Below are positions 227-20,066 of a stretch of 64,000 bases of DNA, one piece after another. The translations under genes and the position numbers were made by a program. How positions within the stretch are numbered: the first letter of the stretch is position 1; each line of letters opens with the position of its first letter. Source of the DNA: Magnolia sinica (Eukaryota > Streptophyta > Magnoliopsida > Magnoliales > Magnoliaceae); contig NC_080582.1 in assembly GCF_029962835.1 (NCBI RefSeq), forward strand, positions 16,190,032-16,254,031, read 5' to 3'. The notes under the pieces were generated by a model. The model was given only the letters and a program-made list of their open reading frames with translations. It was not told the origin of the DNA and searched no databases.

Positions 227-254
227 GTTCAGGAACAACGACACCACCATTTTA

Positions 255-700
255 AAGGAAGCGGATTGTGTACTTCACGGCAAAATCAGTCCAAGCAAGG
301 ATCTGTGGGACCCACCGTTGTGAATGACTTTTATCCAAACTGTTCATCCATTTTTTTTATATCATTTTAGGGTATGAGTCCAACAAATGAAGCAGATCCA
401 AGGGTCAAGTGGTCCATACCATGGGGATTGAACACCCACAGTTAAAAACATGGTGGCCACAGAAGTTATTTATCAAGCTGGAAGTTGTTTTATACATTCA
501 TCCAAGTTTGTGTGACCTTACAAATACGTTGGATGGAAAGTAAACGTCACGATGGGCCTTATGAAGGTTTCAACGGTCAACATCATATCACCGCTGCATC
601 CTATGGTGTGGTCCACCTGATTCTTGCATTTGCCTCACTTTTTGGCTTGTATTATAAAATGATTTGAGAAATTGGATGAACGGTATAGATTGAGCCCTTT
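255..700. mobile_element. Palindromic (foldback) MITE copy
   Basis: The left arm (GGATCTGTGGGACCCACCGT, then a TTATCCA.. CTGTTCATCC stretch, ..AAGTGGTCCATACCATGGGG) is answered on the right by its imperfect reverse complement (CCTATGGTGTGGTCCACCTG.., ..GGATGAACGGTATAGAT). The centre contains the family's conserved core, with a short text near ATCAAGCTG and TGTGTGACCTTA. This family recurs dozens of times in the window. The 60-codon ORF inside it (485-667) is a by-product of the repeat, not a gene. The right terminus decays near 700. Confidence 0.8.
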
Positions 701-1020
701 TTAAATTCCTTACCCAACATTGTGGGCATTTTTGTCATTTAAAACAAATTTATAACCGAAGCTAAGAAAATCAAACAGAAGCTGCCCTTTTACATTAACT
801 TAATTAATGAGGTATTTTGATGATAACATAATTTAAAAAGATACTGGGATGTAAATATGGTATTAATGAGTTACTATTTTATAAAAATTCCTTTATTTTA
901 TTAATATTTAGAAGTGATTGGAGATTTATAAAAATTTAGGGATTTTATCATGTACTCTTCTTAATAAATAAGAAAGTATCACAATCTAATAGAATTACCG
1001 ACCTAATCCTCTAACAAACT
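700..1020. other. Gene-free A/T-rich spacer
   Basis: Low-complexity A/T-rich DNA with short scattered ORFs only. The stretch from about 860 (TTTTATAAAAATTCCTTTAT) resembles 48297-48330, so the duplicated block A may begin here. Confidence 0.6.
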
Positions 1021-2013
1021 TAATTTTTACCAATACTCAAAAGTTTTCACCCCCAGCTTATTCGGACTAGGAAACTGACCCAAATCCGACCTATACTCTG
1101 GAGGATTGGGCCCGGGTTTGAAACTCAGACCGCTTATCAAAGGGAACTGATCACCTTATACGAGCCTGCACCACACGTAATCATACAGTGCGTTTTCTGC
1201 CATCCAAACGGGGAAAAAAGAATATTTAATACATCCAATGGCTAAAAATGTCCTATACCACAAGGAGTGGTGCTGGTGCCTGCAGGTAATCAGTTCTGAT
1301 AATTAGTCGGGTCAGCTCAGGAACTCAACTCATCTCACTTGCACACCAACCATGATGGAAAATATCTTGCACACCAGCGATGATGGAAAATATCTTAATA
1401 TGAGAAAAGACAGAAATTTCAATAGATTTACATACCTGAAGTTTGGCTCCTCGGTGTCTTTCCAGTAGCAACTCAAATAAAACTAACAAGGCATCAAGTG
1501 GTGTAGTAAGCCGGAAAGCTTCATACTGGATGCGTTTATATATGCTTCCCGGAGGTAGATGTGAAGGATGGATAATTGGATGCTTGCTTGCATTAAACGG
1601 AAAGGAAAAAGAGAAAGGTTGATGCTTCCTTGAATAAAACGGAAAGGAAAAGGGATAGGTTGATGCTTCCTTCCATGGGAGAGAAAGGGGTTTCCTATGG
1701 AAGAGAGGAATCTCTTTCACAGTCAAAAAGCAATTTTGGTACTCTTTACTGTAGAAGAGGCCAGAGTTTGTGTCATACGAGGCGAGTTCCTGTTTGGAAT
1801 TAGTTTATAAATGATCGGGGACGTCAGATCAATGGCTTGGATAGACTAGCCATGGGACCCACACTTACCAACCAGGTTGGGAAACCAATAGAGAAGTTGG
1901 CATCTTTTCATTAATTCCAGCGATTCGGGTGGATGCATCCGGAAATTATAACTGTCGTGCATTCGGATTTGAGAAGAACAGTTCCTTTCTACGTACTGAG
2001 ATGACGTGGAACT
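1020..2013. repeat. Duplicated block A, left copy (partner of 48390-49610)
   Basis: Runs collinearly with 48.4-49.6 kb: shared stretches include GGTTTGAAACTCAGACC (about 1116), the CTGAAGTTTGGCTCCT region (about 1437), a pyrimidine/purine-rich AAAGAGAAAGG tract and ATCAATGGCTTGGATAGACTAGCCA (1829 on; fewer than 20 bases quoted apply to each half). Minus-strand ORFs occur at matching places in both copies (1325-1726 and 48774-49114) but differ in frame and end, with proline/phenylalanine/serine-rich low-complexity products, so I do not call a gene. A shorter part of the same text (CCACTTATCAAGGGGAACT) also appears at 34.8-35.0 kb. Confidence 0.8.
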
Positions 2014-2214
2014 TACTGCCACATGAAGCTAGGTGGGGCCCACCGTGATATTTATGGGAAATCCACCCAGTCCGTCCATTTTTCCTGATCATCTTAGACA
2101 TGGCCCAAAAATGACACAAATCCAAAACTTAAGTAGGCTGTACGACAAGAAAATATGGTCACATGGGTAGGTAAATGCACACCGTTGAAACCTCCCTGGG
2201 TCCACCGTGCTGAT
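2014..2214. mobile_element. Left half of a split palindromic element
   Basis: Starts at the CTAGGTGGGGCCCACCGTGA arm and runs through the usual left arm to ..CCTCCCTGGGTCCACCGTGCTGAT, where family text stops abruptly. The continuation (GATGAACTGAAAACACAAAAATT.., quoted in part) is found 15.1 kb away from 17363. The uninterrupted arrangement exists in the paralogous copy at 53520-53985, which identifies 2214/2215 as an insertion boundary. Confidence 0.85.
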
Positions 2215-2670
2215 GAGTCCGGATCCTCTGCCTCCGCCTCCCGCAATCTCATTGGTCCACCCCACCGCTCCTGCCACGTAGGACTAGCCCATCTGTTTCT
2301 GTTTCATATTTAAAAAAAAAAAAAGAAAAGAAAAAACGAAAGTCTCTCTGCCGTCTTCCCTAACGGCAATGGCACCACTAACGGCACTTTCCATTTCCGG
2401 TTCCGGAGATTTTTCAGAGATTTCTTCTTCTCTCGTTTCTAATTTCAAATTATTTCCTTTTACAGATGGATCTCATCAAAGCGGAAGAAAAAGAGGGGTT
2501 TTTCCTTTTGACGATCGGAGGCCCTCTTTCCCCAATCTCTCACAATTCGTCTCGCCCATTTTCCACCGAGCAGCCGATAGTCGATTTCTACTATTTCGTC
2601 TATTCATCCATCAAAGATCCACCCCACCTCACAGGTATTTTAATTTTTTTTTAATTTTTTACAGATTATT
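2215..2670 (+). repeat. Left long terminal inverted repeat of the 15-kb element
   Basis: Matches 16886-17362 on the opposite strand. Shared landmarks are GAGTCCGGATCCTCTG, CTCATTGGTCCACC, CACGTAGGACTAGCCC, a poly-A tract, AACGGCAATGGCACCACTAA and an intron-like segment ending TTTTACAG. Homology fades after CAGAT at about 2668. The repeat contains the start of a transcription-unit-like structure pointing inward. Confidence 0.88.
2466..2634 (+). CDS. Exon-like ORF inside left TIR, inward-facing
   Basis: A 56-codon open frame starts MDLIKAEEKEGFFLLTIGG directly after an intron-3'-like TTTTACAG and ends at ACAG/GTATTTT, a plausible donor. The right TIR holds the same exon on the other strand (16922-17090), also open, with about seven amino-acid differences and identical splice borders. 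Upstream in both TIRs is another open ATG frame (2369 on, MAPLTALSISGS..). I do not recognise the protein. It may be the 5' end of a host gene captured when the TIR formed, or the element's own leader exon; with an exon at each end it could drive inward transcription. Confidence 0.4.
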
Positions 2671-3150
2671 TATGATCTGCCTCCAATGGCTGTGGTATAT
2701 CTTCTTCTTCTTTTTTTCTTTCTAATGCAGACTATTAAATGGGGAACATTGGATGCTGTTTTTGAAATGCCTATGTGCATGTAGACTAATAGGAGATTTT
2801 CGGGATTCTTCCTATGGCGAATGCGAATTTTTTATGTTTTAATTTGTTTCCACTCATGCATTGTTTAATGTGATATAAAGATAGGTAACGTGGTTGGTGA
2901 TAGATTTCTTTGGTTTTTATTTTATATGGTTTTATATTGATGATGATAGATTGATTTCTATGGCACATGTACGTTCTAAGTATGTCTTGTTTGTTTACCC
3001 TCATTGTGGAAATCTTATTTTCAACTAGTGCATGTGAAAAGTTCTAAATGGTGGGTCATCAAAACCTGAATTCAGGATTCAGGCAATGCATGGATCTGAG
3101 GGAGAAGTATTACTTACACACATTGGAGAAGGTGACTAAAGAAAGTTATC

Positions 3151-3369
3151 ATGTGGGCCCAAGGAGCTTCCTCAAATCGTCAGAAAGTATCTAATGTGTT
3201 TGATGAAATCTGCCTTTTGGCCTACCTGCTATACATATGGTTTGCCCGTATTGGTCAAGAGGTGAATGATTTGGCTGATGATCAGCTAAAGGGGGCATGC
3301 ATTGCCCTTCATTGTGTATTGGGAGTTCTCTTCCTTTGCATTACTGCTCCTTTTTACTTACTGGTATAA
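3151..3369 (+). CDS. Unidentified 72-codon ORF, hydrophobic C-terminus
   Basis: Reads MWAQGASSNRQKVSNVFDEI.. and ends in a hydrophobic stretch (ALHCVLGVLFLCITAPFYLL) that would suit a membrane segment. The last codons TTACTGGTATAAG could equally be an exon end followed by a GT donor. It lies 0.5 kb inside the left TIR exon and on the same strand, so it may be a second exon of that inward-facing unit. I recognise no family, and chance cannot be excluded. Confidence 0.25.
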   Translation: MWAQGASSNRQKVSNVFDEICLLAYLLYIWFARIGQEVNDLADDQLKGACIALHCVLGVLFLCITAPFYLLV

Positions 3370-3443
3370 GCGACCATTAAAAAATCACACTGCTGCAAAA
3401 AAAAAAATAAAAAAAATAGAGAGTTTTTCAGAGTAAAAAGAGA

Positions 3444-3683
3444 GGAATAATACTCATAGCCTATTAAGCACCCTAGATTTGGGTGTTATTAGAGGCAATT
3501 GGAGGTAAATGCACCAAAATGGTGTTTTTACTGCCTTGGATTCAAAGGTAAATGAAAACATATGGAATAATACTCATAGCCTGTTAAGCACCCTAGAATT
3601 GGGTGTTATTAGAGGCAATTGGAGGTAAATGCACCAAAATGGTGTTTTTACTGCCTTGGATTCAAAGGTAAATGAAAACATAT
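3444..3683. repeat. 120-bp tandem duplication
   Basis: Two copies, 3444-3563 and 3564-3683, starting GGAATAATACTCATAGCC and differing at only a few positions (CTATT/CTGTT, TAGATTT/TAGAATT). Copy two loses the pattern at AAAACATAT. The rest of 3700-4420 shows no gene. Confidence 0.95.
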
Positions 3684-4427
3684 ATTTTAGAGTGTTTTGA
3701 GATCATTTTATTTTGTCGTGAATTCAAGCTAATTGGTGTGAAATGGCTTTCTTGCCCCTCTTTTAAAAGTAAGAGAGTTGCATGAGTAACAAAGGTGTTA
3801 TTAGGCTACTAATATACCATACACTTGGCATGCTAATTATACCCCGAAACAATTCATTCAGCAATTGCATCACTTAAATCACACCAATTGAATGATCGAA
3901 ACTGTCCAGACATAGGTAATTTAAATGCACAGTTAAAAAACATTGACAAGTCACTCGTTTGTGATCCCTAGGTTTTTGGCCTACTAAAGGCTCGGAATTT
4001 CCTCATTTTAGGTGAAAATATATATTTCAATAGGCTTACTACGATCATTCTGTCAAACATCATATATATACACTAATTTGCGATATTAAAGCAGATTTAA
4101 CTAATCAAATTAAGGTTCCTATGAATATACTAAAGAGTTCCAACACATTCATGACGGACATCTAAATACAATTTTTTTTTGGAATTAAAGCGCATTCCAA
4201 TTACAAGCTGCCAAATTCAACCAAGGATTCTGATTCACATGGATTCCATTGTAATCGTGAATTGGATCCCAATGCATTCCAATTAAAAAGGTGCCAAACG
4301 AGCCCCAACTTTTCTCAAACTCTCCTATTCTTTACACACACACACACCCTCTTCCTTGTTTTCTGTACGTCCTTCTGCAACAGCCAAAAGGCCTGAACAG
4401 TTTGTGTACAAATGAGAAAGAGAAATG

Positions 4428-4736
4428 TCATTTGCAGGTCTTCAATACTGAATTGATTGCACACATTATGAGGCGGATGCTGCTTCTTTCAGCTGTGGTG
4501 GTGGTCGGGAGCACCCGCTGGTGGTCTAATGTTTGATGAACCTGTTCAAATATTGGCCGCCCGTGCGCCGCAATTGTTGGGTCCACTGGATCTATAGCAA
4601 CAACAACGTCTACCATCCAATCTAGCTTCTGGGAGGTATTGTTTCCAATATCGCATGCTAGTTGTTGGAGAAGGGATAGCAGGACTCCTTGACTCAGAGG
4701 AAGAGGAAGAACTGATAGAATCGCTTGCAAATCAAT
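4428..4736 (-). pseudogene. VCS-like: Captured terminal exon of VARICOSE/EDC4-like decapping scaffold
   Basis: VARICOSE is the plant EDC4 scaffold that holds DCP1/DCP2 in P-bodies. Only its last coding exon is seen here. After a polypyrimidine run and TTCTTCAG acceptor, the minus strand reads [53 protein letters not shown] and [18 protein letters not shown], then TGA. Wording, exon border and the C-terminal ..CK-stop fit the VCS C-terminal alpha-helical domain as I know it. There is no frameshift in this exon. It is about 100 of the roughly 1,300 residues of a full protein, so it cannot make a functional scaffold. A short KEMQKQM-containing exon upstream on the same strand (6783-6878) may be another piece. 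Confidence 0.8.
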
Positions 4737-5966
4737 CTGAAGAATGAGTAGGATAGGCAGATAACATTAGAACATTGATTTTTCTCCCCGACAGGAATTT
4801 TGAGAGGCGCTAACAATATTTATATGATAAAACAAGACCTCATTATACACGAATTCTATGAGGTGGCTCCATCTAACATGGGCTATGCTTAGTTACTCAA
4901 GACCATATTTAGCAAACACAAGACGTCAAAAGAATAGTAGGGGGAAATGTTCAGGTTTAAATAGGTCTCTATCATTAAAATTTTAGTCAAAGTTTGGTAG
5001 AAGAAAGAAAGCAAAAACCCAGAAATACGGAGAATGAAAAGTTTGGGTTTAACATGGTTCCAATTCAATAAAATGGAAAAAAAACAAAAAAAAAAAAATT
5101 AAAAAAAAAAACACAAAAAGCCAGCTATATATGCATATGGGTTTGTTATATTTAAAATTAGGTTAAGGGTGAATATTTCAATTAAAACGGTTAAAATTTC
5201 TTAATGTATAAGCAATTATTATAAAGGTAATCGAATAGTGGGTTAATATTATCTTTTGCCTCTGTTAAATCCTTCCTTTGGAAGTATTCCCCATACAAAT
5301 TGATCTGTTTCTTCTGAAATCTTCACTATCTGCCCATCTTCTTTAAAATATGGAGTTTTAATTTGGTTTGTCCAAATATTTATTTATTAATGCCTATCTT
5401 GCTAAAAATACAGAGTTTTAAACATTTAGTCAATTTACGCTTAAAAAAATAAAAATAAATTAAAATAAGGATTTTAAACTTGAGTATTGCTAACAAGGAT
5501 CATGATTTATTCCGAAGAAAATGAAGGAGAATCTTAAATATGGAAGCTCATCATGGTTGGAGTGAATTTTGATTGTTTGCACATGGAGTCCTTGGAGGTG
5601 AATGATGATAAATGCTCAATTTTTTGATGTTATCCGGGCCAATGAGAATGGGGGATTTCTTGGAGGTGGGGGTAAATGCCCATTGAAAAGGAGTGATTCT
5701 AGAAATGAAACGTCTTCCCACAACCAATTGGAGCCTTGGCCGCCATCTATTATGTTTGAGAAGATTTACCATTTATAGGCTGAACATTTAGTTTACCCAA
5801 ATGAAAAGGAAAAGGTAATGTCATGGCCAATACCTCAGCCACAGCACATGTTGATGATCTGCTCTGTAATGGCAACTCTTTCCCTATTTTGTACTAGTTG
5901 TCTTACCATGAAAAACCCTTCACTAATTCTCAGAAAGAAAAAGAAAAAGTTCTTTCGTTAGAGATT

Positions 5967-6164
5967 AATGACAGGTACAGAATCTTTTTTTATTCTTCTT
6001 TTTTTTATTTTTTTGGAAGGATGATGATAATTCATTAAGCTAAAGGAGAGGAAGGTAATTCCCAATACAGAGGGGACACTGAGCCCTGGATCTCACAAGA
6101 TTGATAACCAGAGGATTAAGTTTTCCGGAAGAAGGGGTAAATGAAATGACAGGTACAGAATCTT
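5967..6164 (-). mobile_element. 5'-truncated LINE tail with 20-bp target duplication
   Basis: The 20-mer AATGACAGGTACAGAATCTT occurs at 5967-5986 and 6145-6164. Between them are 158 bp that on the minus strand read ..CTTTAGCTTAATGAATTATC.. followed by an A-rich end, typical of the last bases of plant L1-type LINEs. The insertion is therefore a severely truncated retrotransposed copy. Flanking 4740-5960 is gene-free apart from short uninformative ORFs. Confidence 0.82.
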
Positions 6165-6782
6165 ACCCACCAAAAGACCACAAGATCAATGGTGCTAGTG
6201 GTAATGTGAGTTGGCATTGGAGTCTTTGAAGTTGAATCTACAGCACAGACAAGAAACATGGATGGCTCTTCATTTTCTGAATCTACAACACATACAAGTC
6301 CAGCCAGCAACTTATAGGATGGTACACAATACACAATTTCGCATTTTTGGCATTCAGATGTGTAGAAGATCCTGAATTTTAGTAATTGAGTGTGATTGAA
6401 TCTTATTTGGTTTCCATTCTCTTTTTTCTGATATGAAAACCTTAATACGGTTATTTGAGTTGAATTAGTAAGGACCATATATTGGCCAATAGGAATTATG
6501 CCTTGGTTCCAATGTAATTTAAGGAGGATCGTAAACAAGGCTATATATATATATAGTTACTTACATGGAACTTTGGAAAATACAAAAGATTATCCATTTA
6601 AATAAAGTTCTTAGCAATTTAAAGCAATCAAAGGTGGATTGAGCTCTTTTAACTGGTACGCTTCCAACCCCTTTCAAGTGAATCCATTTTCCATCATAAG
6701 ATATCATCACAATGTCTTAGTTTTGCTCGATCTTAAACCTCCAGATGCTAAATCCTTCCTTCAAATTTCTATCTTATAATTC

Positions 6783-6878
6783 TTATTGTTCTATCACAGT
6801 CTTGGTTTTGCTAAATCTTGAACCTCCAGATGCTCGATCTGTCATTTGCTTCTGCATTTCCTTTAGAATGGTCATAAG
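6783..6878 (-). pseudogene. Possible second VARICOSE exon fragment
   Basis: On the minus strand a CTCTCATTGCAG acceptor is followed by LMTILKEMQKQMTDRASGGS and then a stop. The LM-x-KEMQKQM wording resembles the start of the coiled-coil region of VCS, and its place upstream of the terminal exon agrees with gene order. Beyond the first dozen residues the match disappears, so identity is tentative. The segment CTCCAGATGC with its flanks is locally duplicated (about 6713-6757 and 6800-6840). Confidence 0.4.
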
Positions 6879-7029
6879 CTGCAATGAGAGGATAACAATC
6901 CAAAGTAAGAAAAAAAAAAGAGTGAATTTCGTACATATTTCTTTGTAGTATATGTGAAGATTGCATACTAACAGAAAGATTCTAGTGTAAATTTCCTCCT
7001 GCTTCATAACAGAAAACTTGCTGTTAACC

Positions 7030-7620
7030 ATTTCAGAAACTAATTACTCCTTCAGACTAAGAGAAATGGATAAAATCTACAAATCCCTGCATGTCTACAT
7101 ACAATTTTTTGATCTTCCATAAATAGATTTTATGAGATAATGTTGTTTTTTTTCTTCGTATGAACATGATCTAATAGTAGTAACTGTTAGCTCATAAATA
7201 GTCTTCAAGGAGAAGAAATTGGCAGGTGTGAGTAACATGCTTGCCCTTAATTCTCTGAACTAGTTAGCTCATTATCCATATTAAATGCAGACAACAAAAT
7301 TGCATGGAAATGTTTTAAACACGGTAACATGATCTGGAAAGAATTGAGTTATGCCGATTTATCAAGGAAATGAAAAAGCAAGCATAAACAGACTAGAAAA
7401 TCTTATTCCTACTGGATAAAAGCATGCTAGCCTGCTTCCTTAAGAACGGACTGTTGAATTGGATGTTCATAACAATGGTTAGAACCATATCCTTAAGAAC
7501 GGACTATTGAATTGGATGTTCAATACGATGGTATGTATATTACTTTGTTCAATGGAAGAACATTCAACTTAAAAAATTGTGATTGTGAAAGTACTTAATA
7601 CTTCTTCATTATAAATGTAG
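7030..7620. other. Interval without a recognisable gene
   Basis: Only short ORFs. A 40-bp text (CCTTAAGAACGGACT..TTGAATTGGATGTTC) is repeated at about 7437 and 7490. Confidence 0.6.
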
Positions 7621-8016
7621 GTTTCACGTTTGAAGATCCATTTATTAAAAAATTGTGAAATAGAATGTGATGGATTTACTGTCTCTATAGACCAAGAATG
7701 CACCCAGCAACCAAATTCGTAAGTCATTTTCCATTTAAAATATGAATTTACTCTTATTTAATGATATTTATCTATCTTTGTATGGTATTAGCAGGGTTGA
7801 TTGTGGTGTCTACTTAATGAAATTTATGGAATGTCTTTCCCGTGGAGATATATTTGATTTCAACTCGGTAAATTTTCTTCTTTTTTTTTTCCTTTTTCTT
7901 ATACAAAATTTATGAAACATACTTACGATCCACTTTCATCATCAGGGGCCAATGAATTTTGAATGAAAAAAGTTGGTTGCACAACTGATGCTGGGCAAAA
8001 TGATTACACCACAGTA
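7621..8016 (+). pseudogene. Captured Ulp1/SENP-type cysteine protease C-terminus
   Basis: Three exons with visible splice sites: 7621-7718 (after ATGTAG, before GTAAGT), 7795-7867 (after TTAGCAG, before GTAAAT) and from 7946 (after CATCAG). Joined in phase they give ..DGFTVSIDQECTQQPNS, VDCGVYLMKFMECLSRGD, IFDFNS. The DCGVYLMK-MEC core carries the catalytic cysteine of C48 (Ulp1) peptidases, which cleave SUMO-like conjugates. Exon 3 has an in-frame TGA at 7964-7966 before a KKLVAQLMLGK tail. The N-terminal catalytic His and Asp region was not found. Plant MULEs carrying Ulp1-like domains are known (the Kaonashi group), so this could be an ancestral passenger and not a fresh capture. Confidence 0.78.
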
Positions 8017-8483
8017 ATGTGACATGTAAAGGTATGAAACATACTTACAATCATGTTGCTCTTTTTAATGGAAGGTATGTGCTTTGATTTTATTTTTTAT
8101 TATTATCATAGTTGTTGCGGGATGCAAATATGCTTTGCTTGTATTCATGATGGGTCTTGTTGTGGATGGAATTCAGGCCAAAATTCTCCTTTATCAGTGA
8201 AAGCATTGGGGCTGCCTGTCATATGATTGCTATCTTACAGGTACTGTAAGAGGGAGAATCTATGTTCATGGCTCCAAGCTGATATTGAAGGTTGTTAGTG
8301 AATCATTCACAAAGGCTAGATTGTAGTGCATAGAACATTTTTAAGATTAATTAGTTTTTTCCATGGTAGGTCCTGCTAGGTGGATGTTTGAAAACTATTG
8401 CTTTCATTGATTGGGTGCATTAGGATTAGATCATCTTAATCATCAATTTTGTATCTTGAATTATGGTTGATGATCATTTTTAA

Positions 8484-8562
8484 GCAGGAAGAAAATCATG
8501 TGCAATATAAATCATTTCATAAGCAGGAAGAAAATCATGCGCAAAATAAATCATTTCATAAG
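8484..8562 (+). repeat. 39-bp in-phase tandem duplication
   Basis: AAGCAGGAAGAAAATCATG.. occurs twice at 39-bp spacing, giving KQEENHVQYKSFH/KQEENHAQNKSFH in the local ORF, followed by a partial third start. Length divisible by three may be coincidence. No gene is otherwise evident in 8020-9630. An 18-bp text AACTGATGCTGGGCAAAA occurs at about 7983 and 9207. Confidence 0.85.
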
Positions 8563-9635
8563 CAGGTTTCTAAGTTCTTTCATTTCTTTCATTTTTTTTT
8601 TCTTTTGACAGGCTTGTCGGTTGATAACAATTCGCAAGGAGTATAACAGCTATATGGAGCTCTTTCTGCTCAAATGTGGTTGGGGATGATCTTCTCAGGA
8701 GTTTTTTTTTTTTTTTTAGGTCCAATGAATGCAATTGTTGCATGGTAGCCTGTTAACAGTTTAGATTGTTCAATTAGAGTATCCAAGTTATGGATTGGAT
8801 CATCCTATCAATACAATAAAACCAAATCAGGCAACAGGTGCAATAGGGCCAAATCAAGGATTGATAAAGGCTTCTGTTTTTTTCTTTTTTCTTTTTTGTG
8901 TGGTGGCCTGTTAAATGTGTTTTGGATTTAATGGACAATTCAAATTGTTCAATTGGAGTCTACAAGTTTTGATTTGAATTGTATGAATTGAAGTATCAAG
9001 TTTCATTCTTGCTTTAAAGTAGGAAGCCCTGTGGGATTAAAATCAACAAATTTGGTTTGTAGGGTCAGACCCACATTAATATTAATTAGTTATCTACCAG
9101 GCAGGCTTGAAATGTCAACTTTGGATACTTCAGGCCCATATTATAACTGCAGAACTGTGCACAGGATTCATACATCAGCGATAGCAGTGATTATCCTAGT
9201 TACGTAACTGATGCTGGGCAAAAATTTCAGTGCATCCGCATGTATTGTAGCAAACATATAAAGTTGTAAATAGAAGAGAATAGATACTCTGACCGTGTGT
9301 GATGGGTGATATGCATGCGCTTAGAAATTATTAAAAAATGCACACATGGCTTAAAATTAATTCAAATTAAACTGTCGGGACCCGGTTTAGATGCATCAGG
9401 AAACAAAAATAAGCTTCCATCAATCGGCGGTTAGGATTTCTCAACAAATCTGATCTTTGAGATCGTGACTGAGAAACATGACTTTCACCATTAAAATGTT
9501 TTGACTTTGAACATATGACCTGAGTAAATTTCCTGAGTGCCTGTGTATCAAGCTTCCAACTCTGCCAGAGTATAAAATATGAATGTCTAAGGCCATTTCA
9601 TTATTTATAGAAATCTTCAGGGCATAAGAAGGGTA

Positions 9636-9998
9636 CGGGGACTCGACGGCAGGGTGATGTAAGTGTTTTATCCACGCCGTCCATCGCTTATCTTAGATCA
9701 TTTTAAAGTATGAACCAAAAAAATGAGACGGGCAAAGGGCTTAAGTGGACCACAAAGTGGGGATTTAACGTACACTATTACAAACTTCTTGGGAGCTGGA
9801 TAAGTTTCAGATCAAATATCACATATTTTTTTTCCACTTCATCCATGTCTACATGACCTTATGAATAGGTTGGATGGTAAAAAAAAAAAATCACGATAGC
9901 CCTTAGAAAGGTTTCAACGGTGGGTGTCATTATCACTACAGCTTCCTTCGGTGTGGTCCACTGGATCTTCGGATCTACTTCATTTTTACCCATTAGAT
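9636..9998. mobile_element. Palindromic element truncated by the minisatellite
   Basis: Contains the complete left arm (..TTATCCACGCCGTCCATCGC..), centre, and right arm as far as GGATCTACTTCATTTTTAC. Family text then stops and array text CCATTAGATTGTTGAAAAAA starts. The tandem array thus grew out of, or was inserted at, the distal right arm. Confidence 0.85.
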
Positions 9999-12900
9999 TG
10001 TTGAAAAAAGTGACAGGTTGCCGGACAAAGTGACCTGGTTCCACTTAATGAATTGACGAGGTTATATTACAAAGTGATGAGATTCACTAGACAAAGTGAC
10101 GAGGTTCACTAAACAAAGTGACGAGGTTGCAGTGCAAAGTGACGGGGTTCAATAGACAAAGTGACGGGGTTCACTAGAAATAGTGACGATGTTGCAATCC
10201 AACCCAACCATTAGATTGTTAAAAAAAGTGACGGGTTGCCGAACAAAGTGACGAAATTGCAGTGCAAAATGACGGGGTTCAATCGACAAAGTAACGGGGT
10301 TGTAGTGCAAAGTGACGGGGTTCAATTATACAAAGTGATGGGGTTCACTAGAAACAATGACGATGTTGCAATCCAACCCAACCATTAATTTATTGAAAAA
10401 AGTGACGGGTTGCTGAACAAAGTAACGGGGTTCAATAGACAAAGTGACGAAGTTGCAGTGCAAAGTGACAAGGTTCAATAGACCAAATGACGAAGTGGCA
10501 GTGCAAAGTGACAGGGTTCAATAGATAAAGTGACGAAGTTGCAGTGCAAAGTAACGGGGTTCACTAGAAACAGTGATGATGTTGCAATCCAACCCAACCA
10601 TTAGATTGTTGAAAAAAGTGACGGGTTGCCGAACAAAGTGATGGGGTTCAATAGACAAAGTGACGAAGTTGACGGGGTTCAATAGACAAAGTGACGTGGT
10701 TGTAGTGCAAAATGACGGGGTTCAATAGACAAAGTGACGAAGTTGCAGTGCAAAGTAACGGGGTTCAATAGACAAAGTGACGGGGTTGTAGTGCAAAGTG
10801 ACGGGGTTCACTTATACAAAGTGACGGGGTTCACTAGAAATAGTGACGATGTTGCAATCCAACTCAACTATTAGATTGTTGAAAAAAGTGACGGGTTGCC
10901 GGACAAAATGATGGGGTTCAATAGACAAAGTGACGAAATTGCAGTGCAAAGTGACGAGGTTCAATAGACAAAGTGACGAAGTTGCAGTGCAAAGTGACGG
11001 GGTTCAATAGACAAAGTGACGGGGTTGTAGTGCAAAGTGATGGGGTTCACTTCTACAAAGTGACGGGGTTCACTAGAAATAGTGACGATGTTGCAATCCG
11101 ACTCAACCATTAGATTGTTGAAAAAAGTGACGGGTTGCCGGACAAAGTGATGGGGTTCAATAGACAAAGTGACGAAATTGCAGTGCAAAGTGACGGGATT
11201 CAATAGACAAAGTGACGAAGTTGCAGTGCAAAGTGACGGGGTTCACTTATACAAAGTGACGGGGTTCACTAGAAATAGTGACGATGTTGCAATCCAACCC
11301 AACCATTAGATTGTTGAAAAAAGTGACGGGTTGTCGGACAAAGTGACGGGGTTCAATAGACAAAGTGACGGGTTGCCGAACAAAGTGATGGGGTTCAATA
11401 GACAAGGTGACGAAATTGCCGTGCAAAGTGATGGGGTTCAATAGACAAAGTAACGGGGTTGTAGTGCAAAGTGACGGGGTTCACTTATACAAAGTGACGG
11501 GGTTCACTAGAAACAGTGACGATGTTGCAATCCAACCCAACCATTAATTTGTTGAAAAAAGTGACAGGTTGCCGAATAAAGTGATGGGGTTCAATAGACA
11601 AAGTGACGAAATTGCAGTGCAAAGTGACGGGGTTCAATAGACAAAGTGACGAAGTTGTAGTGCAAAGTGACGAGGTTCAATAGACAAAGTGTCGGGGTTG
11701 TAGTGCAAAGTGACGGGGTTCACTTATACAAAGTGATGGGGTTCACTAGAAATAGTGACGATATTGCAATCCAACCCAACCATTAGATTGTTGAAAAAAG
11801 TGACGGGTTGTCGAACAAAGTGACAAAATTGCAGTGCAAAGTGACGGAGTTCAATAGACAAAGTAACGGGGTTGTAGTGCAAAGTGACGGGGTTCACTTA
11901 TACAAAGTGACGGGGTTCACTAGAAACAGTGACGATGTTGCAATCCAACCCAACCATTAATTTGTTGAAAAAAATTGACGGGTTGCTGAACAAAGTGATG
12001 GGGTTCAATAAACAAAGTGACGAAGTTGCAGTGCAAAGTGACGGGGTTCAATAGACAAAGTGACGAAGTTGCAGTGCAAAATGACGGTGTTCAATAGACA
12101 AAGTGACGGGGTTGTAGTGCAAAGTGACGGGGTTCAATAGACAAAGTGACGGGGTTGTAGTGCAAAGTGATGGGGTTCACTTATACAAAGTGACGGGGTT
12201 CACTAGAAATAGTGACGATGTTGCAATCCGACTCAACCATTAGATTGTTGAAAAAAGTGACGGGTTGCCGGACAAAGTGATGGGGTTCAATAGACAAAGT
12301 GGCGAAATTGCAGTGCAAAGTGACGGGGTTCAATAGACAAAGTGACGAAGTTGCAGTGCAAAGTGACGGGGTTCAATAGACAAAGTGACGGGGTTGTAGT
12401 GCAAAGTGACGGGGTTCACTTATACAAAGTGATGGGGTTCACTAGAAATAGTGACGATATTGCAATCCAACCCAACCATTAATTTGTTGAAAAAAGTGAC
12501 GGGTTGCCGAATAAAGTGATGGGGTTCAATAGACAAAGTGACGAAATTACAGTGCAAAGTGACGGGGTTCAATAGACAAAGTGACGAAGTTGCAGTGCAA
12601 AGTGACGGGGTTCAATAGACAAAGTGTCGGGGTTGTAGTGCAAAGTGACGAGGTTCACTTATACAAAGTGACGGGGTTCACTAGAAATAATGACGATATT
12701 GCAATCCAACCCAACCATTAGATTGTTGAAAAAAGTGACGGGTTGCCAAACAAAGTGACAAAATTGCAGTGCAAAGTGACGGAGTTCAATAGACAAAGTA
12801 ACGGGGTTGTAGTGCAAAGTGACGGGGTTCACTTATACAAAGTGACGGGGTTCACTAGAAACAGTGACGATGTTGCAATCCAACCCAACCATTAATTTGT

Positions 12901-14229
12901 TGAAAAAAGTGACGGGTTGCCGAACAAAGTGATGGGGTTCAATAAACAAAGTGACGAAGTTGCAGTGCAAAGTGACGGGGTTCAATAGACAAAGTGACGA
13001 AGTTGCAGTGCAAAATGACGGGGTTCAATAGACAAAGTGACGGGGTTGTAGTGCAAAGTGACGGGGTTCACTTATACAAAGTGACGGGGTTCACTAGAAA
13101 TAGTGACGATGTTGCAATCCAACCCAACCATTAGATTGTTGAAAAAAGTGACGGGTTGCCGAACAAAGTGATGGGGTTCAATAGACAAAGTGACGAAATT
13201 GCAGTGCAAAGTGACGGGGTTCAATAGACAAAGTGACGAAGTTGACGGGGTTCAATAGACAAAGTGACGGGGTTGTAGTGCAAAATGACGGGGTTCACAT
13301 ATACAAAGTGACGGGGTTCACTAGAAACAGTGACGATGTTGCAATCCAACCCAACCATTAATTTGTTGAAAAAAGTGACGGGTTGCCGAACAAAGTGATG
13401 GGGTTCAATAAACAAAGTGACGAAGTTGCAGTGCAAAGTGACGGGGTTCAATAGACAAAGTGACGAAGTTGCAGTGCAAAATGACGGGGTTCAATAGACA
13501 AAGTGACGAGGTTGTAGTGCAAAGTGACGGGGTTCACTAGAAATAGTGACGATGTTGCAATCCAACCCAACCATTAGATTGTTGAAAAAAGTGACGGGTT
13601 GCCGAACAAAGTGATGGGGTTCAATAGACAAAGTGACGAAGTTGACGGGGTTCAATAGACAAAGTGACGGGGTTGTAGTGCAAAATGACGGGGTTCACAT
13701 ATACAAAGTGACGGGGTTCACTAGAAATAGTGACGATGTTGCAATCCAACCCAACCATTAGATTGTTGAAAAAAGTGACGGGTTGCCGAACAAAGTGATG
13801 GGGTTCAATAGACAAAGTGACAAAATTGCAGTGCAAAGTAACGGGGTTCAATAGACAAAGTAACGGGGTTGTAGTGCAAAGTGACGGGGTTCACTTATAC
13901 AAAGTGACGGGGTTCACTAGAAACAGTGACGATGTTGCAATCCAACCCAACCATTAGTTTGTTGAAAAAAGTGACGGGTTGCCGAACAAAGTGACGGGGT
14001 TCAATAGACAAAGTGACGAAGTTGCAGTGCAAAGTGACAGGGTTCAATAGACCAAATGACGAAGTTGTAGTGCAAAGTGACGGGGTTCAATAGATAAAGT
14101 GACGAAGTTGCAGTGCAAAGTGACAGGGTTCACTAGAAACAGTGACGATGTTGCAATCCAACCCAACCATTAGATTGTTGAAAAAAGTGACGGGTTGTCG
14201 GACAAAGTGACGGGGTTCAATAGACAAAG
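9999..14229. repeat. 4.2-kb higher-order minisatellite, ~21.7-bp basic unit
   Basis: Basic unit approximates CAAAGTGACGGGGTTCAATAG and variants. A marker segment (GTTGCAATCCAACCCAACCA then TTAGATTGTTGAAAAAAG) recurs 19 times, first bases near 10191, 10365, 10581, 10851, 11090, 11286, 11524, 11763, 11937, 12220, 12459, 12698, 12872, 13111, 13338, 13554, 13738, 13934 and 14150. Spacings of 174, 196, 216, 239 and 283 bp equal 8, 9, 10, 11 and 13 basic units. Private variants (GAATAAAG, GTGTCGGGG) recur about 935 bp apart, and another set (GTTGACGGGG, CACATATAC) about 400 bp apart, showing larger duplications. ORFs in the array (MNPVTLHCNF..) are repeat artefacts. Confidence 0.96.
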
Positions 14230-14368
14230 TACACTCCAACAAATTCCTCGGTTGGAAAGATGAGAGTGTGATTCTTGTCTCGATAGGGTAGAAATGGCTT
14301 ATTGATAGTCTTCGGACAGACCACATATGCCTCAATAAAGCCAAACATGCTATCTAAGTCCTTGTTAT
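14230..14368 (-). pseudogene. Fragment of mitochondrial-plasmid-type family B DNA polymerase
   Basis: The minus strand has an open stretch reading NKDLDSMFGFIEAYVVCPKT, INKPFLPYRDKNHTLIFPTE, EFVGVY. The IEAYVVCP, PFLPYRD and LIFPT-x-x-FVGVY wording is what I know from protein-primed DNA polymerases of plant mitochondrial linear plasmids and their relics in organelle and nuclear genomes. Array text lies directly on both sides (CAAAGT at 14230; GATTGTTGAAAAAAG after 14368). Only about 46 residues of a roughly 1,000-residue protein remain. It likely reached the nucleus as mitochondrial DNA. The ORF called in another frame here (MALLRHMWSV..) is not real. Confidence 0.75.
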
Positions 14369-14530
14369 AAGATTGTTGAAAAAAGTGATGGGTTGCCGGA
14401 CATGTATTTGCATGCTAGCTAGTTATTATTTGGATATGGGTTAAATAAACACAACAATGCTAGACAGTGACTGGATTACTGGATAAAGTGACGGGGTTCA
14501 TTAGATAAAGTTAAGGGGTTGCCAATTAAA
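14369..14530. repeat. Decayed array remnants beyond the polymerase fragment
   Basis: GATTGTTGAAAAAAGTGATG at about 14370 and GATAAAGTGACGGGGTTCAT at about 14484 show array units continuing past the insertion, separated by non-array A/T-rich DNA. Confidence 0.8.
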
Positions 14531-14659
14531 TTGAAAAGAAAATCCAATCATTCAGGCGTTAACATGAGCAATCTTGGAGATGAGGCCTCTTTAGTTGAAA
14601 TTTGATAAAATAAATATGTGAAGAAATTCGAAATATACAGTACCAGAAAGAGGATAAAA

Positions 14660-14715
14660 AGCTACGGATAAAATTCGTAGCAATATATATTTAGCTACAG
14701 ATTAGATCCGTAGCT
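14660..14715. repeat. Short nested inverted repeats (AGCTACGGAT)
   Basis: AGCTACGGAT at 14660-14669 pairs with ATCCGTAGCT at 14706-14715, and inner TTCGTAGC / AGCTACAGA pair as well. Such GCTACGGA arms resemble subterminal repeats of CACTA (En/Spm) transposons, but no CACTA terminus was seen. Confidence 0.5.
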
Positions 14716-15035
14716 GATTACTCCTTGAGGTTGCACTAAACCTGATTAATCCTTATGACATTAGAGGGCTTAAGGTCATGATTACATATTGATTTTGAGT
14801 TCAAGGATATCCAATTTCTATAGACATTTCACACACCCACAATCCCATTGTAAGGGAATCTTGCACATGATCTGTAGTTGGACAACATTTCGTAAAATAT
14901 TCAGATACTACACATTGACACCAAATGAGTAAATAGTGCAATGGAAACCAACTGTGGACATGCCAACATCTATCAAATAACAACAGGATCCTTTTCATTG
15001 GGGCCCCATACAAATAATTAATAGTACCCCATACA

Positions 15036-15447
15036 AAGCCTTTCTTCACTAAGCCTCTGTGTTTCTTCACACTTTCTTTCACTTTCATCTAACTTCTTTT
15101 CCAGTGAGCTCAGCATGGCCTACGATAAATTAATGGTGAGTGACATAAATATCGCAAGTAGCTAGAAATGCAAATGCATGTTCACCCATGGAATTTAGGC
15201 AAACTAATTTGAAATGTTATGTTAATCATCACAAAACTCCTTGAGATGGCAATCCCGCCTTCAGTATGTCATTTTCAAAGGTCATGAGTTTATCCAACGG
15301 CACACTTTCAATCACTGGGACCTCATGTATGACAGGAATTAGGTTTGTTGCTTCCTTCATAGCCTCTTGTTCCTTCACTATAATCTTTTCAGTTTCTTTG
15401 AATTGAAGCTGCATCTCGTCCAATTGCATTTCTAGCATGGCGAGCTT
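15036..15447 (-). pseudogene. Captured class XI myosin coiled-coil exons
   Basis: Class XI myosins are the plant organelle-transport motors. Here only neck-proximal coiled-coil text is present. Exon 1 (about 15259-15447) reads MLEMQLDEMQLQFKETEKII, VKEQEAMKEATNLIPVIHEV, PVIESVPLDKLMTFENDILK. Exon 2 (15036-15119), after a TATCGTAG acceptor, reads AMLSSLEKKLDESERK, CEETQRLSEERL. The joined ..LK/A-LSSLEKK phase matches known myosin XI genes. The donor at exon 1 is AAG/GC and not GT, so splicing may be impaired. Downstream of EERL the homology breaks into unrelated text. Motor, IQ and cargo-binding domains are absent. Confidence 0.85.
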
Positions 15448-15449
15448 CC

Positions 15450-16080
15450 CATCCCAATCATTGGGTGTCGTGTGAACCGCCTGTGTTTTGGAATGGTCTG
15501 ATTTTCTGGATATGGGTGAACTTATGAATGGAATGTATGGCAAACACACCACAAACTGCAATGAAAAACAGAACTGAATCAATCAAAACAATATCTTCAA
15601 AATACCTGTTGCAATCATACAAATGAATGAATAGTAAACAACTCATCTTGATGCCCATTCTCCCTCCTCCTTTACCCGGGCTTGGGACCGGCAATGCAAG
15701 GAATTGCATTGGCAGAGTTAAAAAGGGGTTTAGGCTCCATTTGGCTTGTGACGACCAAATGAATCTAATATGTTTAAAAAGGGACTTAGGCTCCATTTGG
15801 TCCTAAACTTTCAAGCAGTGGGCCCACAGAGATGGTTGGGAAAAGAATTATGGCAATGGTCCACATTCAATGGGGCCAAAGATCTAAGAGCAGGATCTTC
15901 AAATCTGAAAAACCTTTTGGATCCCTCATCCATGCTTTGGCCCATCAGATCAATGGTCTGGAATCTGATCACCAAACCATGGGCCCCACATTCACAATTG
16001 TGAGCCAGAGCAAACAGTACAATCGCTGAGGCCTAGGACCATATAGTTCCAGGACAAATAACGGTCAGCAGAGTGCTTAC
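15450..16080. other. Interval without a recognisable gene
   Basis: Contains a short tandem-like text (TTAGGCTCCATTTGG at about 15730 and 15786) and overlapping short ORFs with no family resemblance. Confidence 0.5.
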
Positions 16081-16276
16081 AGTCAACAAGATGTGCTAGG
16101 TGCCATATATTTCTGATCCGAGTCCCATTAAACTTCAGAACCTGTAGATTGTAAGTAATGATATATCATATACTGCCCTGGATGGAGACATCAAAATTCA
16201 GTAGGGAGCAGGAGAGATCACTTGCCTGCTGATTGCCCATATCCTCATACCCGATGTTTACTTCATTTGCTAAGAC
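16081..16276 (-). pseudogene. Captured Deg/HtrA-type protease exons (PDZ region)
   Basis: Two minus-strand exons. 16226-16276, after a TATATAG acceptor, reads VLANEVNIGYEDMGNQQ and meets GCAAGT, a good GC-AG donor. 16081-16141, after TCTACAG and before GTAAGC, reads VLKFNGTRIRNIWHLAHLVD. These match consecutive exons of the second PDZ region of plant DegP2-like chloroplast proteases as I remember them (..NEVNIGYED.., ..LKFNGTRI-NIHHLAHLID..). The intron is retained, so DNA and not cDNA was captured. The serine protease domain is absent, so no activity is expected. Confidence 0.78.
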
Positions 16277-16566
16277 CTATATGAAAGCAAGGAGTACAAG
16301 CTTAGGCATTCAAAAGAAAACAGGAGAAAAAAAAAAAAACGCTTAATTTGATAGTTCCAGAACTACTTCTAATAAGCAAATCCCATTGCACCGAAGCATA
16401 ACATAAATAAAGAGATGTCTCCTTTGTTTAGAGGAAAACAAAGCTCAAGACATGTGGCAGTTATGTTCCATACGATTCTCCATGGAAGTGTCTGGGAAGA
16501 TTATTAAGCTCATGCCTTCGAAGCTGGAAGTAGGCCATGACCGGGAACAGTCAGTTTTCAGAATCT

Positions 16567-16815
16567 ACTAAGACATTCTGCTGTTTTGCACCATGGGAGA
16601 CATCTGGGAAGTGCACCTGATGCTCCAGCCACAAAGATGACCTGGTTGGGAAAAATCAGGCTGTCAATTCATTAGATGGGCCACTAAGACATTCTGCTGT
16701 TTTGCACCATGGGAGACATCAGGGAAGTGCACCTGATGCTCCAGCCACAAAGATGACCTGGTTGGGAAAAATCAGGCTGTCAATTCATTAGATGCTCCAG
16801 CCACAAAGATGGATA
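16567..16815. repeat. 116-bp tandem duplication plus partial third copy
   Basis: ACTAAGACATTCTGCTGTTT begins copies at 16567 and 16683; they are nearly identical. A third partial start (GATGCTCCAGCCACAAAGAT) follows at about 16791, just before the right TIR. Interval 16280-16560 shows no gene. Confidence 0.95.
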
Positions 16816-16885
16816 AGGGATAAATTTTTAAACCAAATGGTCCTAAAAAAAGGGATTAAAACAATCAAATATATATATAAAAAAA

Positions 16886-17362
16886 AAATCTGTAAAAAAT
16901 AAAAATTAAAAATTAAAATACCTGTGAAGTGGGGTGGATCTTCGATGGATGAATAGACGAAATAGTGGAAATCGACTATCGGCTGCTCGGTGGAAAATGG
17001 GCGAGAGGGATTGTAAGAGACTGGGGAAAGAGGGCCTCCGATCGTCAAAAGGAAAAACCCCTCTTTTTCTTCCGATTTGATGAGATCCATCTGTAAAAGG
17101 AAAGAATTTGAAATTAGAAACGAGAGAAGAAGAAATCTCTGAAAAATCTTCGGAACCGGAAATGGAAAGTGCCGTTAGTGGTGCCATTGCCGTTAGGGAA
17201 GACGGCAGAGAGATTTTCGTTTTTTCTTTTTTTCTTTTTTTTTTTTTTAATATGAAACGGAAACAGATGGGCTAGTCCTACGTGGCAGGAGCGGTGAGGT
17301 GGACCAATGAGATTGCGGGAGGCAGAGACTCTCTGCCTCCCGGAGGCAGAGGATCCGGACTC
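16886..17362 (-). repeat. Right long terminal inverted repeat of the 15-kb element
   Basis: Reverse complement of 2215-2670 at high identity. It contains the matching inward-facing exon on the minus strand (MDLIKSEEKEGFFLLTIGG.., 17090 to 16922) with the same TTTTACAG acceptor and ACAG/GTATTTT donor. The outer tip carries an extra small palindrome (GGCAGAGACTCTCTGCC) absent from the left tip, explaining the length difference. Confidence 0.88.
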
Positions 17363-17510
17363 TATATATATATATATATATATTTCACATATCGCATATC
17401 TCTTACATTCTATGATGCTTGATGAACTGAAAACACAAAAATTAGCCCGATCCAAAACTTCTGTGGCCCCACCAATGTTTCAACAGTGGATGTTCATTAT
17501 TCTGTACTGC
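17363..17510. mobile_element. Right part of the split palindromic element
   Basis: After a (TA)n tract at the insertion boundary, family text resumes with TTGATGAACTGAAAACACAA, then ATTAGCCCGATCCAAAACTT and TTTCAACAGTGGATGTTCAT. It aligns with 53740-53830 of the uninterrupted paralogue. The distal right arm is deleted, and block B starts at about 17520. Confidence 0.8.
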
Positions 17511-17519
17511 AGGTTTTTG

Positions 17520-19260
17520 AATTTTAAGTATTAAAATATCTGTTATAAACTAATAAATAATTTTAAATTTCAAATACAAACTAGTTATAATTTGGGATTT
17601 TTACGAGAAAGTTTGGAAATTACCCAAATACTCGTGTATTATTTTTCTTTAAAGTTAGAAAATTTTGTGGCACAAGTATTATGCGTATGACATCCAAGTT
17701 TATCAAACATCTACAACTAACCATAACGATCACACAGAACTAATGATAATAATAACATGACTAAAAACCTTTCTGATTGAATCACTGGATGGGTCCCATG
17801 TGCATTTTGATGTTTTTAAAGTGGTATATGTTATTTTTTATGGTGCGGCTCATCTTCCATTTACATTGATCAAATTTTTGTTCTTCTCAATTTCGTACCA
17901 AATTACAGCTTTCAACTGGTTGGATATCATAAAAATATCACATGGGCCCAAAATTCTTCACTTTACCACTTTCTAAAGAAAAAGTGCATGCTGAGTTTTA
18001 TGATAATTTCACCACCCAAAAGCACTTCTTGTTCATTTCATTCACGGGTACATTAGTTGGTAAAATACCAAAGTAGCAAAATTCCTAATATCAGATAATT
18101 TTTACATTATCATGCCGAGTAATTTAAAACTGCTGATATTTGGAAAATCTCACTATAATATTGTTTATCTTATTTCCCACGATAATATCTTGAGATTTTC
18201 AACATAATAGATCTTTATCACACTGCTAATCCTCTGTTGAGCAAAACCAATACCAATTCTACACCTAGGAATCTCATTGACAAACTCACTGCGATTGCCA
18301 ACCTTTTCCTATGATTTTGTTCTGCAAGACTGCAGCAACTCTGTAAAAACCAGTGCTTTGTACACCTTCAGAATCTCACCCTTTTTGAATTCCTGGCCCT
18401 TCCAACAATGGATTTATCTAATCATATAATGTTGAAATTGCAGTCAATAAGGAAAAAATCACATCCCTGTGGATGCATGTTCATGCATATTATCCAATAT
18501 CTACAAATTAGAGAGACCATTCAACTGGCTCATCCATCATACTTCTTTGGGTTGTCCTTCACTGTATGAGTCATAACCAGTGTGACAAACATCACCTATA
18601 ACATCACAAAAGTATACACTGAACTATTTGTTATGTGAATAGATATTTAATTAAAAAAATTAAATGGATGAGATTTTCGAAAATATCTTCCAAGAAAAAC
18701 CTCAAATTTTGAACATCTCCCGAAAATTTGCAGAGAGCAGGGTTTGTCACTATGGTGTCAATCGAGCATTGACGGGCCTTGATCTTTGGCCTGTAGATGG
18801 CAGCAAATGGTATCAAAGACAAGTTTTTAGCTTAAAATGGAACTGGTCCCCACTGGTGATCTGGCCTTGGGGATATGGCCCATCCGCATGGTGAATCAAA
18901 TGGTCCCAAGCATGGGTGCAATAGATGTTCTGTAACACTCATCTACATTATACTAGCATCTCTTACTGATGAATTTAGGCTCGGATATTTTAGTCCATGT
19001 TGCAATCAGATCCAACAAGAAAATGTCAAAACTAGCTAGAAGCTGCCTGTGAAACATCATCTTGAAGATTTTAACAGAAAGATCTAACAAGATAAATGGT
19101 TCAGATGTTCTGCTACAAGTATTGAACATTGCGGTATCAGATGTTCTGCTACAAGTATTGAACATTGCGGTATCGCTCAAAGACAAATATTCTAAACATT
19201 TTCATCATTATCACTTTCTAAAGATTATTTTTCATTCCTTCGGGTCGCTCTATAAATTAC
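17520..19260. repeat. Duplicated block B, left copy (partner of 54160-56160)
   Basis: Aligns along its length with 54.16-56.16 kb: CATTTTGATGTTTTTAA.., TCTCACTATAATATTGTTTA.., GGATATGGCCCATCC.., and CACTTTCTAAAGATTA at the end. Partial copies lie at 25130-25880 and 27262-27665. No protein family is visible. The ORF at 18664-18894 is interrupted in the other copies. Confidence 0.85.
19101..19172. repeat. 36-bp exact tandem duplication
   Basis: TCAGATGTTCTGCTACAAGT.. repeats at 19101-19136 and 19137-19172. Only one copy is present at the matching place in the right-hand block (about 56063), so the duplication arose after the blocks separated. Confidence 0.95.
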
Positions 19261-19531
19261 ATTAGGGAAAAAAAAATAAAATCCAGATAACATACAAATT
19301 ATGCTGGGCGTTCAGCTGCTCTTTCAAGACCATCAGAGGTTCTTCCGTTATGGTCCACTTGAATCGAGACCGCAAACTAATTTGGAGAAAGCTCACTTCA
19401 GATAGAACCAGCTTCCTCGATTAACAAGGAGTGGTTTATAGATTATATCATTCTTCATCTGTTGACTTTCAAAAACTATCTAATCAAAATCTGCTCTTTA
19501 CTTCATGGTTAGCCAGTCAGCCTCAAGCAAG

Positions 19532-19592
<61 letters not shown>
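19532..19592. repeat. (CT)n microsatellite
   Basis: About 60 bp of CT repeats. ORFs reading poly-SL or poly-RE across it are artefacts. Confidence 0.98.
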
Positions 19593-19594
<2 letters not shown>

Positions 19595-19638
19595 GCATGC
19601 GTATCTTTGTAGCAAGCTTCTCCATGATTTTACCTAAA

Positions 19639-20066
19639 TCACACGTGGCCCATACAACATGGAAAAATAGGGCCAGCCTGAGTAGAGGTACTGTGCAATA
19701 CATGGATATCTTCTCTTCCAAGCTTGAAAACATCTTGTTCTGATATATTTACATCAACAGCATGGCTGGTCCAATGGGGTTGTAAGAGCAGAACTTGCTC
19801 GGCAGAACCCTCTCTCAGCTTTGCCACGCTAACAAATGAAAGAATACAGTACCGCCATTCCCCAATTGAGTGCCAGACATGGAATGGAACCACTGATTCA
19901 GAGCCACTGCACAGCAGTTGAATGTGACAAAGAACAGTGGAGAGAGCACTGAAGATTAGTTGAAGAAATATGTGGCATCGAGTACGTCTTTCAAGTCGAA
20001 ATCCCCTCGCTCTGGCAAGGGAGGGAAACTTAATGATGGGAACGATTGCTCGAAGCTCTCCAACAG
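19639..20066 (-). pseudogene. Unidentified exon-like fragments, minus strand
   Basis: Fragment 1 (19956-20066) follows a TATTTATGCAG acceptor and reads [36 protein letters not shown] then TAA, which looks like a genuine terminal exon. Fragment 2 (19639-19893) is an 84-codon frame (MVPFHVWHSIGEWRYCIL.., ..VLLLQPHWTSHAVDVNI) with non-repetitive, protein-like composition. I cannot name either. They may belong to one broken gene or to two. The surrounding DNA up to 20680 gives no further exons. Confidence 0.4.

Follow-up and report, generated by a model that had tools for sequence, protein, structure and literature searches.

The window analyzed here is the whole 64,000-nucleotide stretch taken from contig NC_080582.1 of Magnolia sinica (positions 16,190,032 to 16,254,031). 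Positions 2215 to 17362 of this window hold one 15-kb Mutator-like element (MULE), which is bounded by terminal inverted repeats (TIRs) and carries pieces of host genes. This element is referred to below as the window copy, and other copies in the genome are labeled by contig and, where needed, by position in megabases. The features of the element and its borders are as follows.

2210 to 2214, plus strand: CTGAT, not in the empty site; equal to the bases beside the left end of copy C6, where they are part of the target duplication
2215 to 2670, plus strand: left TIR (inverted-repeat comparison and genome search)
3417 to 7498, minus strand: captured genomic VARICOSE/EDC4 DNA in two segments, 3417-6830 and 6836-7498 (parent alignment)
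3444 to 3683: 120-bp tandem duplication, present among the compared copies in the window copy and C6
4428 to 4766, minus strand: open frame with the EDC4 C-terminal domain (Pfam EDC4_C, 1.8e-14)
7520 to 9984, plus strand: resident region of the family, including a remnant Ulp1 (C48) gene
7739 to 7915, plus strand: Ulp1 Cys-motif exon (Pfam Peptidase_C48, 1.7e-4)
9985 to 14235: minisatellite of 4.25 kb with a unit of about 22 bp
15036 to 15621, minus strand: putative myosin-XI-like segment, with about 840 bp of the underlying repeat missing at 15433/15436
15621 to 15800: segment common to older subfamily copies
15802 to 16684, minus strand: captured DEG2 fragment, 98.4% identical to C14:26,814,754-26,815,634
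16567 to 16794: 116-bp tandem duplication at the DEG2 edge
16886 to 17362, minus strand: right TIR, containing close to its terminus a hairpin-like insertion of about 35 bp (inverted-repeat comparison)
17363 to 17417, plus strand: foreign flank of 55 bases, consisting of (TA)n and unique DNA

The sequence GAGTCCGGATCCTCTGCCTCC or its complement was found at both ends of the element, with its first base at 2215 and its last base at 17362; the outermost bases from 2215 read GAGTCCGGATCC, and their complement finishes at 17362. Inverted arms aligned at 2312-2660/16896-17244 (349 nt, 95% identity) and at 2232-2336/17223-17327 (105 nt, 94% identity), giving TIRs of about 450 bp, of the long kind that characterizes the MULE superfamily. 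The original prediction, made from the letters of the window, had proposed a single long-TIR element with a shared terminus at these positions, and its boundaries proved exact to the base. A scan of 20 interior reading frames gave just two Pfam families above the curated cutoff, EDC4_C and Peptidase_C48. The minisatellite is common to the window-type copies and varies in length from about 1.1 to 4.3 kb (measured as the gap between flanking matches), so that it enlarged the element, as had been predicted, by copy number. Outside the element, the window also contains a (TA)52 repeat at 119-222.

When the left repeat was used to search the genome, at least 42 matches were returned; the best 40 of 74 candidates were scored, which makes this number a lower bound. 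Pairing the matches by hand according to position and strand yielded 19 loci with two ends and 2 with a single end, the window being one of these loci. Besides the window, 12 loci were fetched in full, and for the other 8 one end or both. The 9-bp target duplication typical of MULEs was exact in 13 of the 19 two-ended copies (C6, C14, C69, C42, C4, C1:26.8M, C2:13.8M, C8, C3, C1:120M, C5:91M, C11, and C18:35.9M) and matched at 8 of 9 bases in 2 others (C5:32.7M and C1:104M). It was ambiguous in one copy (C18:19.99M) and absent from three with both ends read, namely, the window copy, C10:75.99M, and C17. The C14 duplication, located among TA repeats, carries little weight on its own.

The body of copy C6, which has two ends and a perfect duplication, is colinear with the window copy end to end at 98 to 99%, and among the other fetched copies nearly the whole layout is common to six and parts are common to three. 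These shared interiors refute the idea that the two inverted repeats belong to different elements facing each other across ordinary genomic DNA, leaving it a negligible probability. That idea would fit the missing duplication of the window copy and the presence at its ends of flanks from two other copies, and the original prediction had named independent target duplications and interior partners for the two TIRs as grounds for abandoning a single element; half of this picture was indeed found, but the colinear, two-ended C6 copy speaks for one element. The other copies, the empty site, and the transposase-bearing relatives that the original prediction had proposed to look for were all found.

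Transposase matches were found at 9 of the 21 TIR loci (C5:91M, C7, C11, C1:26.8M, C18:19.99M, C1:104M, C5:32.7M, C18:35.9M, and C10:75.99M), inside the locus in every case but that of single-ended C7, where the match lies beside it. Copy C5:91M contains the combination that defines FAR1-type MULEs, with a FAR1 DNA-binding domain (2.7e-26), a MULE domain (9.7e-17), and a SWIM domain (5.1e-6) identified by Pfam (PF03101, PF10551, and PF04434), together with a plant mobile domain (PMD) gene (1.5e-13) on the opposite strand. The FAR1 and MULE part used as a genome query gave 115 matches at 1e-40. Open transposase frames reach 848 amino acids in C7 and 746 in C18:19.99M, and simple pairwise estimates of dN/dS, taken with no significance test, were 0.34 to 0.43 for the transposase (three pairs) and 0.27 for the PMD gene (one pair). 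No transposase was found in the window copy when it was compared with C5:91M (L029), the two matching only in the TIRs and in short stretches.

The original prediction counted Ulp1 among pieces of at least four unrelated host genes. The protease exon is present in the window copy, and the corresponding C48 exon in copy C4 scored 7.6e-10 in Pfam. A further exon, which we take to carry the Ulp1 His motif, is present in C4 and C1:26.8M and missing from the window copy, where 7498 joins 7520. The region from 7520 to 9984 is partly common to the older same-ended copies C5:32.7M, C7, C11, C1:104M, and C18:35.9M, in which no VARICOSE match was found among the best 40 of 6574 candidates scored. Since the Ulp1 exons are shared with same-ended relatives, and several of these still have the transposase, Ulp1 is best regarded as a decayed resident gene of the family and not as a host capture of the window element.

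The captured VARICOSE DNA has an identified genomic parent. Positions 3417 to 7498 align with C10:6,326,881-6,335,284 at 96.6 to 97% and are colinear with it except for 4.46 kb absent from the element; a colinear match of 3.3 kb to the genomic sequence of the parent shows that introns are retained, as had been predicted together with the VARICOSE/EDC4 identity itself. Parent positions 619-9431 are kept in C1:26.8M and 619-7427 in C3, both with gaps, which implies that the first VARICOSE capture measured about 8.8 kb. Four deletion junctions examined within the VARICOSE DNA of C1 and C3 have 7, 4, 3, and 0 matching bases, and the junction common to the window copy and C4 has 0. Relative to the parent, the captured exon carries 2 to 6 synonymous and 3 to 6 other changes per copy, with a stop in the C6 copy. 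The parent lies on the contig of the window itself, where C10:6,230,000-6,483,413 contains a run of related VARICOSE-like loci, apparently a tandem cluster, with 75 to 99% identity to the captured DNA.

The second capture with a clear parent is the DEG2 fragment, which confirms the Deg protease of the original prediction. One exon in the window fragment matches the chloroplastic Protease Do-like 2 of PDB entry 4fln at 7.5e-6, and in the parent the exon that follows matches this entry at 6.3e-36; a second DEG2 exon is presumably present in the window fragment, as judged by eye from the translation. The segment at 15036-15621 is labeled putatively as myosin XI, and it had no myosin match in Pfam or PDB. 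A 70-amino-acid stretch of this piece gave 36 genome matches, 10 in copies of the element and 26 elsewhere. The piece is 90 to 91% identical to a dispersed repeat, of which at least seven copies, the query locus counted, have lengths from about 3 kb upward and share 94 to 96% identity (best 40 of 4492 candidates scored); an eighth copy lies in two parts. Because the repeat is dispersed and multicopy, the myosin-like piece was probably acquired second-hand and not taken directly from one host gene, as had been supposed. The repeat with myosin-like sequence was recorded at L034 and at C3:110,008,041-110,011,029, and at one locus the stretch recurs in tandem.

There are thus two captures with a clear parent gene, VARICOSE and DEG2, and one second-hand piece. 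Four gene-like sequences are nevertheless represented, as they would be in a narrow-sense Pack-MULE that had captured Ulp1 and three other pieces from host genes. Such an origin is improbable given that the Ulp1 region is common to older same-ended copies, several with transposase and with no VARICOSE match among the candidates scored, and that the myosin-like piece lies in a dispersed repeat. The broader view of an unusually large, multicapture MULE does hold, and the family can be described as a lineage of enlarged Pack-type MULEs whose transposase is of the FAR1 type.

The family resembles the Pack-MULEs of rice, maize, and Arabidopsis in its MULE ends, 9-bp duplications, intron-bearing genomic gene fragments, and several sources per element. 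In the 2004 rice Pack-MULE set, no full-length element exceeded 7 kb and most were 1 to 2 kb (PMC6431247), and in one benchmark the previously found elements had widths of 300 to 15,000 bp (PMC8903248). In contrast, members of the Magnolia sinica family measure 12 to 16 kb, one original capture was about 8.8 kb, and although no transposase was found inside the window copy, in keeping with a Pack-MULE, C1:26.8M and C18:19.99M contain one. The FAR1-type transposase architecture together with ULP sequence is shared with Jittery-like/MuDR-like MULEs of grapevine and melon, in which ULP occurs in both orientations (PMC2528002); the Magnolia sinica family adds the PMD gene and large host captures, the likeness being one of domain architecture. 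Kaonashi/Vandal elements of Arabidopsis also carry a ULP domain within a MULE but are non-TIR MULEs (PMC13317346), unlike the window element with its long TIRs.

Larger and rearranged copies accompany the window-type copies. C1:26.8M is 21.3 kb long with an exact duplication, and C18:19.99M spans 57 kb, or about 23 kb without a gap of about 33.5 kb, which is presumed to be a nested insertion. Both contain the transposase, VARICOSE, and DEG2, and C18:19.99M also contains the myosin-like piece; C10:75.99M has a broken transposase, captures, and a truncated left end. The window-type copies of 12 to 16 kb look like internal-deletion derivatives of such forms. Copy C3 (122,129,235-122,141,364; L026/L027) is a 12.1-kb near-palindrome with an exact 9-bp duplication, and each of its 5.8-kb arms (98.3% identity) bears a terminus and a VARICOSE capture. 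Copy C17 (12,780,375-12,793,874; L031/L032) has 5.1-kb arms at 98.6%; both of its termini are truncated, and they are enclosed by a direct repeat of 60 bp in place of a 9-bp duplication. In copy C14 (65,899,174-65,911,453; L011), the terminus is tandemly repeated, the second one lying 98 bp farther in. This arrangement resembles the tandem-TIR MULEs of tomato and other plants (PMC3310237), but C14 is doubled at only one end, by a partial TIR repeat.

The insertion site of the window copy differs from those of most other copies. An empty site at C10:15.712-15.718M matches both window flanks without the element; in this duplication, window positions 253-2209 and 17418-20403 are represented at C10:15,712,988-15,718,056, about 480 kb away, at 93 to 100% identity. 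On the left, the 398 bp adjoining the junction are 100% identical, followed farther left by 93% and then 98.5%, and on the right, the 1,722 bp adjoining the junction are 98.9% identical, with 97.7% farther right. The empty site holds 46 bases that are absent from the window, and in two further copies of the underlying repeat about 40 bases occupy this position, which indicates that the window lost the 46 target bases. The CTGAT preceding the element differs from the empty site at 2 of 5 bases and agrees with C6 at all 5. On the other side, window positions 17367-17420 equal the flank of copy C14 at 54 of 54 bases, the last three of which (CTT) are also target sequence; the four bases before 17367 fall within a TA run that is 4 bases shorter in C14. 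This flank is native to C14, because a paralogous site on C19 that lacks the element runs on with this sequence.

A set of 37 flanks was compared from the element end outward in 649 pairs (C17, unfetched ends, and the left end of C10:75.99M, which is truncated, were left out), and the exact run was 0 to 4 bases in 645 of the pairs. Longer runs were seen between the right flanks of C1:26.8M and C10:75.99M (22 bases), between the window right flank and C14 (17, or 54 if the length of the TA run may vary), between C14 and C8 (7, TA rich), and between the left flanks of the window copy and C6 (6). C10:75.99M thus bears 22 bases of the C1:26.8M flank, its target duplication included. Two other sources for the right flank of the window copy were considered and rejected. 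A segmental duplication of the C14 locus would not leave only 54 bases in common beside a TIR that is C6-like, and a dispersed repeat does not suit a sequence that, with the best 40 of 71 candidates scored, was found only at the window, at C14, and at the empty C14 paralogue on C19.

The window copy and C6 are sisters (0.68% divergence over 3.3 kb, support of 0.991), and the window copy is closest to C6 in most, not all, 500-column blocks. The missing duplication, the target deletion, the foreign flank, and the short matches at the joins, with 5 bases at the left join, are the marks of a repair product. It is likely that the element belongs, as a nonautonomous copy, to a family of TIR-MULEs of very large size and that the window copy was made by repair. 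Break repair with a template switch from C6 to C14 probably explains this copy better than does ordinary transposition, which accounts for most copies. Normal transposition with both ends rearranged later, through repair of a right-end break off C14 that deleted the target and through mutation of the left bases, seems rather unlikely. Canonical insertion in 15 of the 19 two-ended copies lends it weight, and repair off a homologous terminus would account for the C14 flank; yet it requires two separate events, and the 204 bp of left flank beside the junction are identical to the empty site, yet the last 5 bases before the element fit C6.

The history that we favor for the window copy, break repair with a template switch, would run as follows. 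In its full form, the family carries a Jittery-like transposase of the FAR1 type together with a PMD gene and C48 exons of the Ulp1 type. An ancestor that still had the transposase would have acquired the VARICOSE stretch of about 8.8 kb, the DEG2 piece, and a piece of another repeat, after which internal deletions would have taken out the transposase, the PMD portion, and the Ulp1 His exon. The resulting elements of 12 to 16 kb could then have spread through transposase supplied in trans, with 9-bp target duplications. At C10:16.19 Mb, a break would have been repaired by copying that started just outside the left end of C6 and traversed the element from end to end. At the terminus common to both copies, synthesis would have changed its template to C14 and continued for 55 to 58 bases into the C14 flank, and the product would then have been joined, through a match of 3 bases, to the opposite side of the break, with the loss of the 46 target bases.

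Several observations weigh against parts of this history. Window positions 4189-5184 are closer to copy C2, and positions 16235-16729 are no closer to C6 than to other copies. The distance of 0.68% from C6 means an old event or later gene conversion, and on the left the contribution of C6 is seen in 5 bases outside the target. The 98-bp tandem terminus of present-day C14 has no counterpart in the window copy; either C14 was different at the time, or it came in only at about the last 21 bases. One neighbor in the VARICOSE run is 99% identical to the captured DNA over 814 bp, and the exact parent may thus be a neighbor of the 97% locus. The C5:91M transposase lies in two frames with one in-frame stop between them, and that of C1:26.8M also holds a stop.

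Gap-filling and FoSTeST models of animal Pack-TIRs (PMC8277862) likewise involve template switching and short breakpoint matches, but there the capture is into the element, whereas the window copy seems to be a whole element moved with donor flank. The same source calls it worth exploring whether gap filling or FoSTeST applies to plant Pack-MULEs. Literature searches, which covered subscription journals thinly, gave no report of this MULE family among the matches listed and no paper joining the plant mobile domain, Ulp1, and a transposon, and the family was absent among the matches listed, at the level of the listing, for Magnolia with MULEs or gene capture.

How plant MULEs acquire host DNA is an unsettled question, and here one genome keeps the stages together, with transposase-bearing copies in which no VARICOSE match was found, copies with transposase and captures, deletion derivatives, parents, and empty sites. 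TIR-MULEs of 12 to 21 kb, above the usually quoted sizes, are able to insert with clean duplications, and the window copy adds a case whose two ends point to two donors. Noncanonical marks occur in 3 of the 19 two-ended copies (the window copy, C10:75.99M, and C17). We suggest tentatively, at slightly less than even confidence, that very large MULEs use two routes, transposition and a transposase-independent, template-switching repair that copies whole elements of 13 to 18 kb and drags donor flank along, and that capture of host DNA, internal deletion, and the formation of palindromic copies may all go back to this repair.

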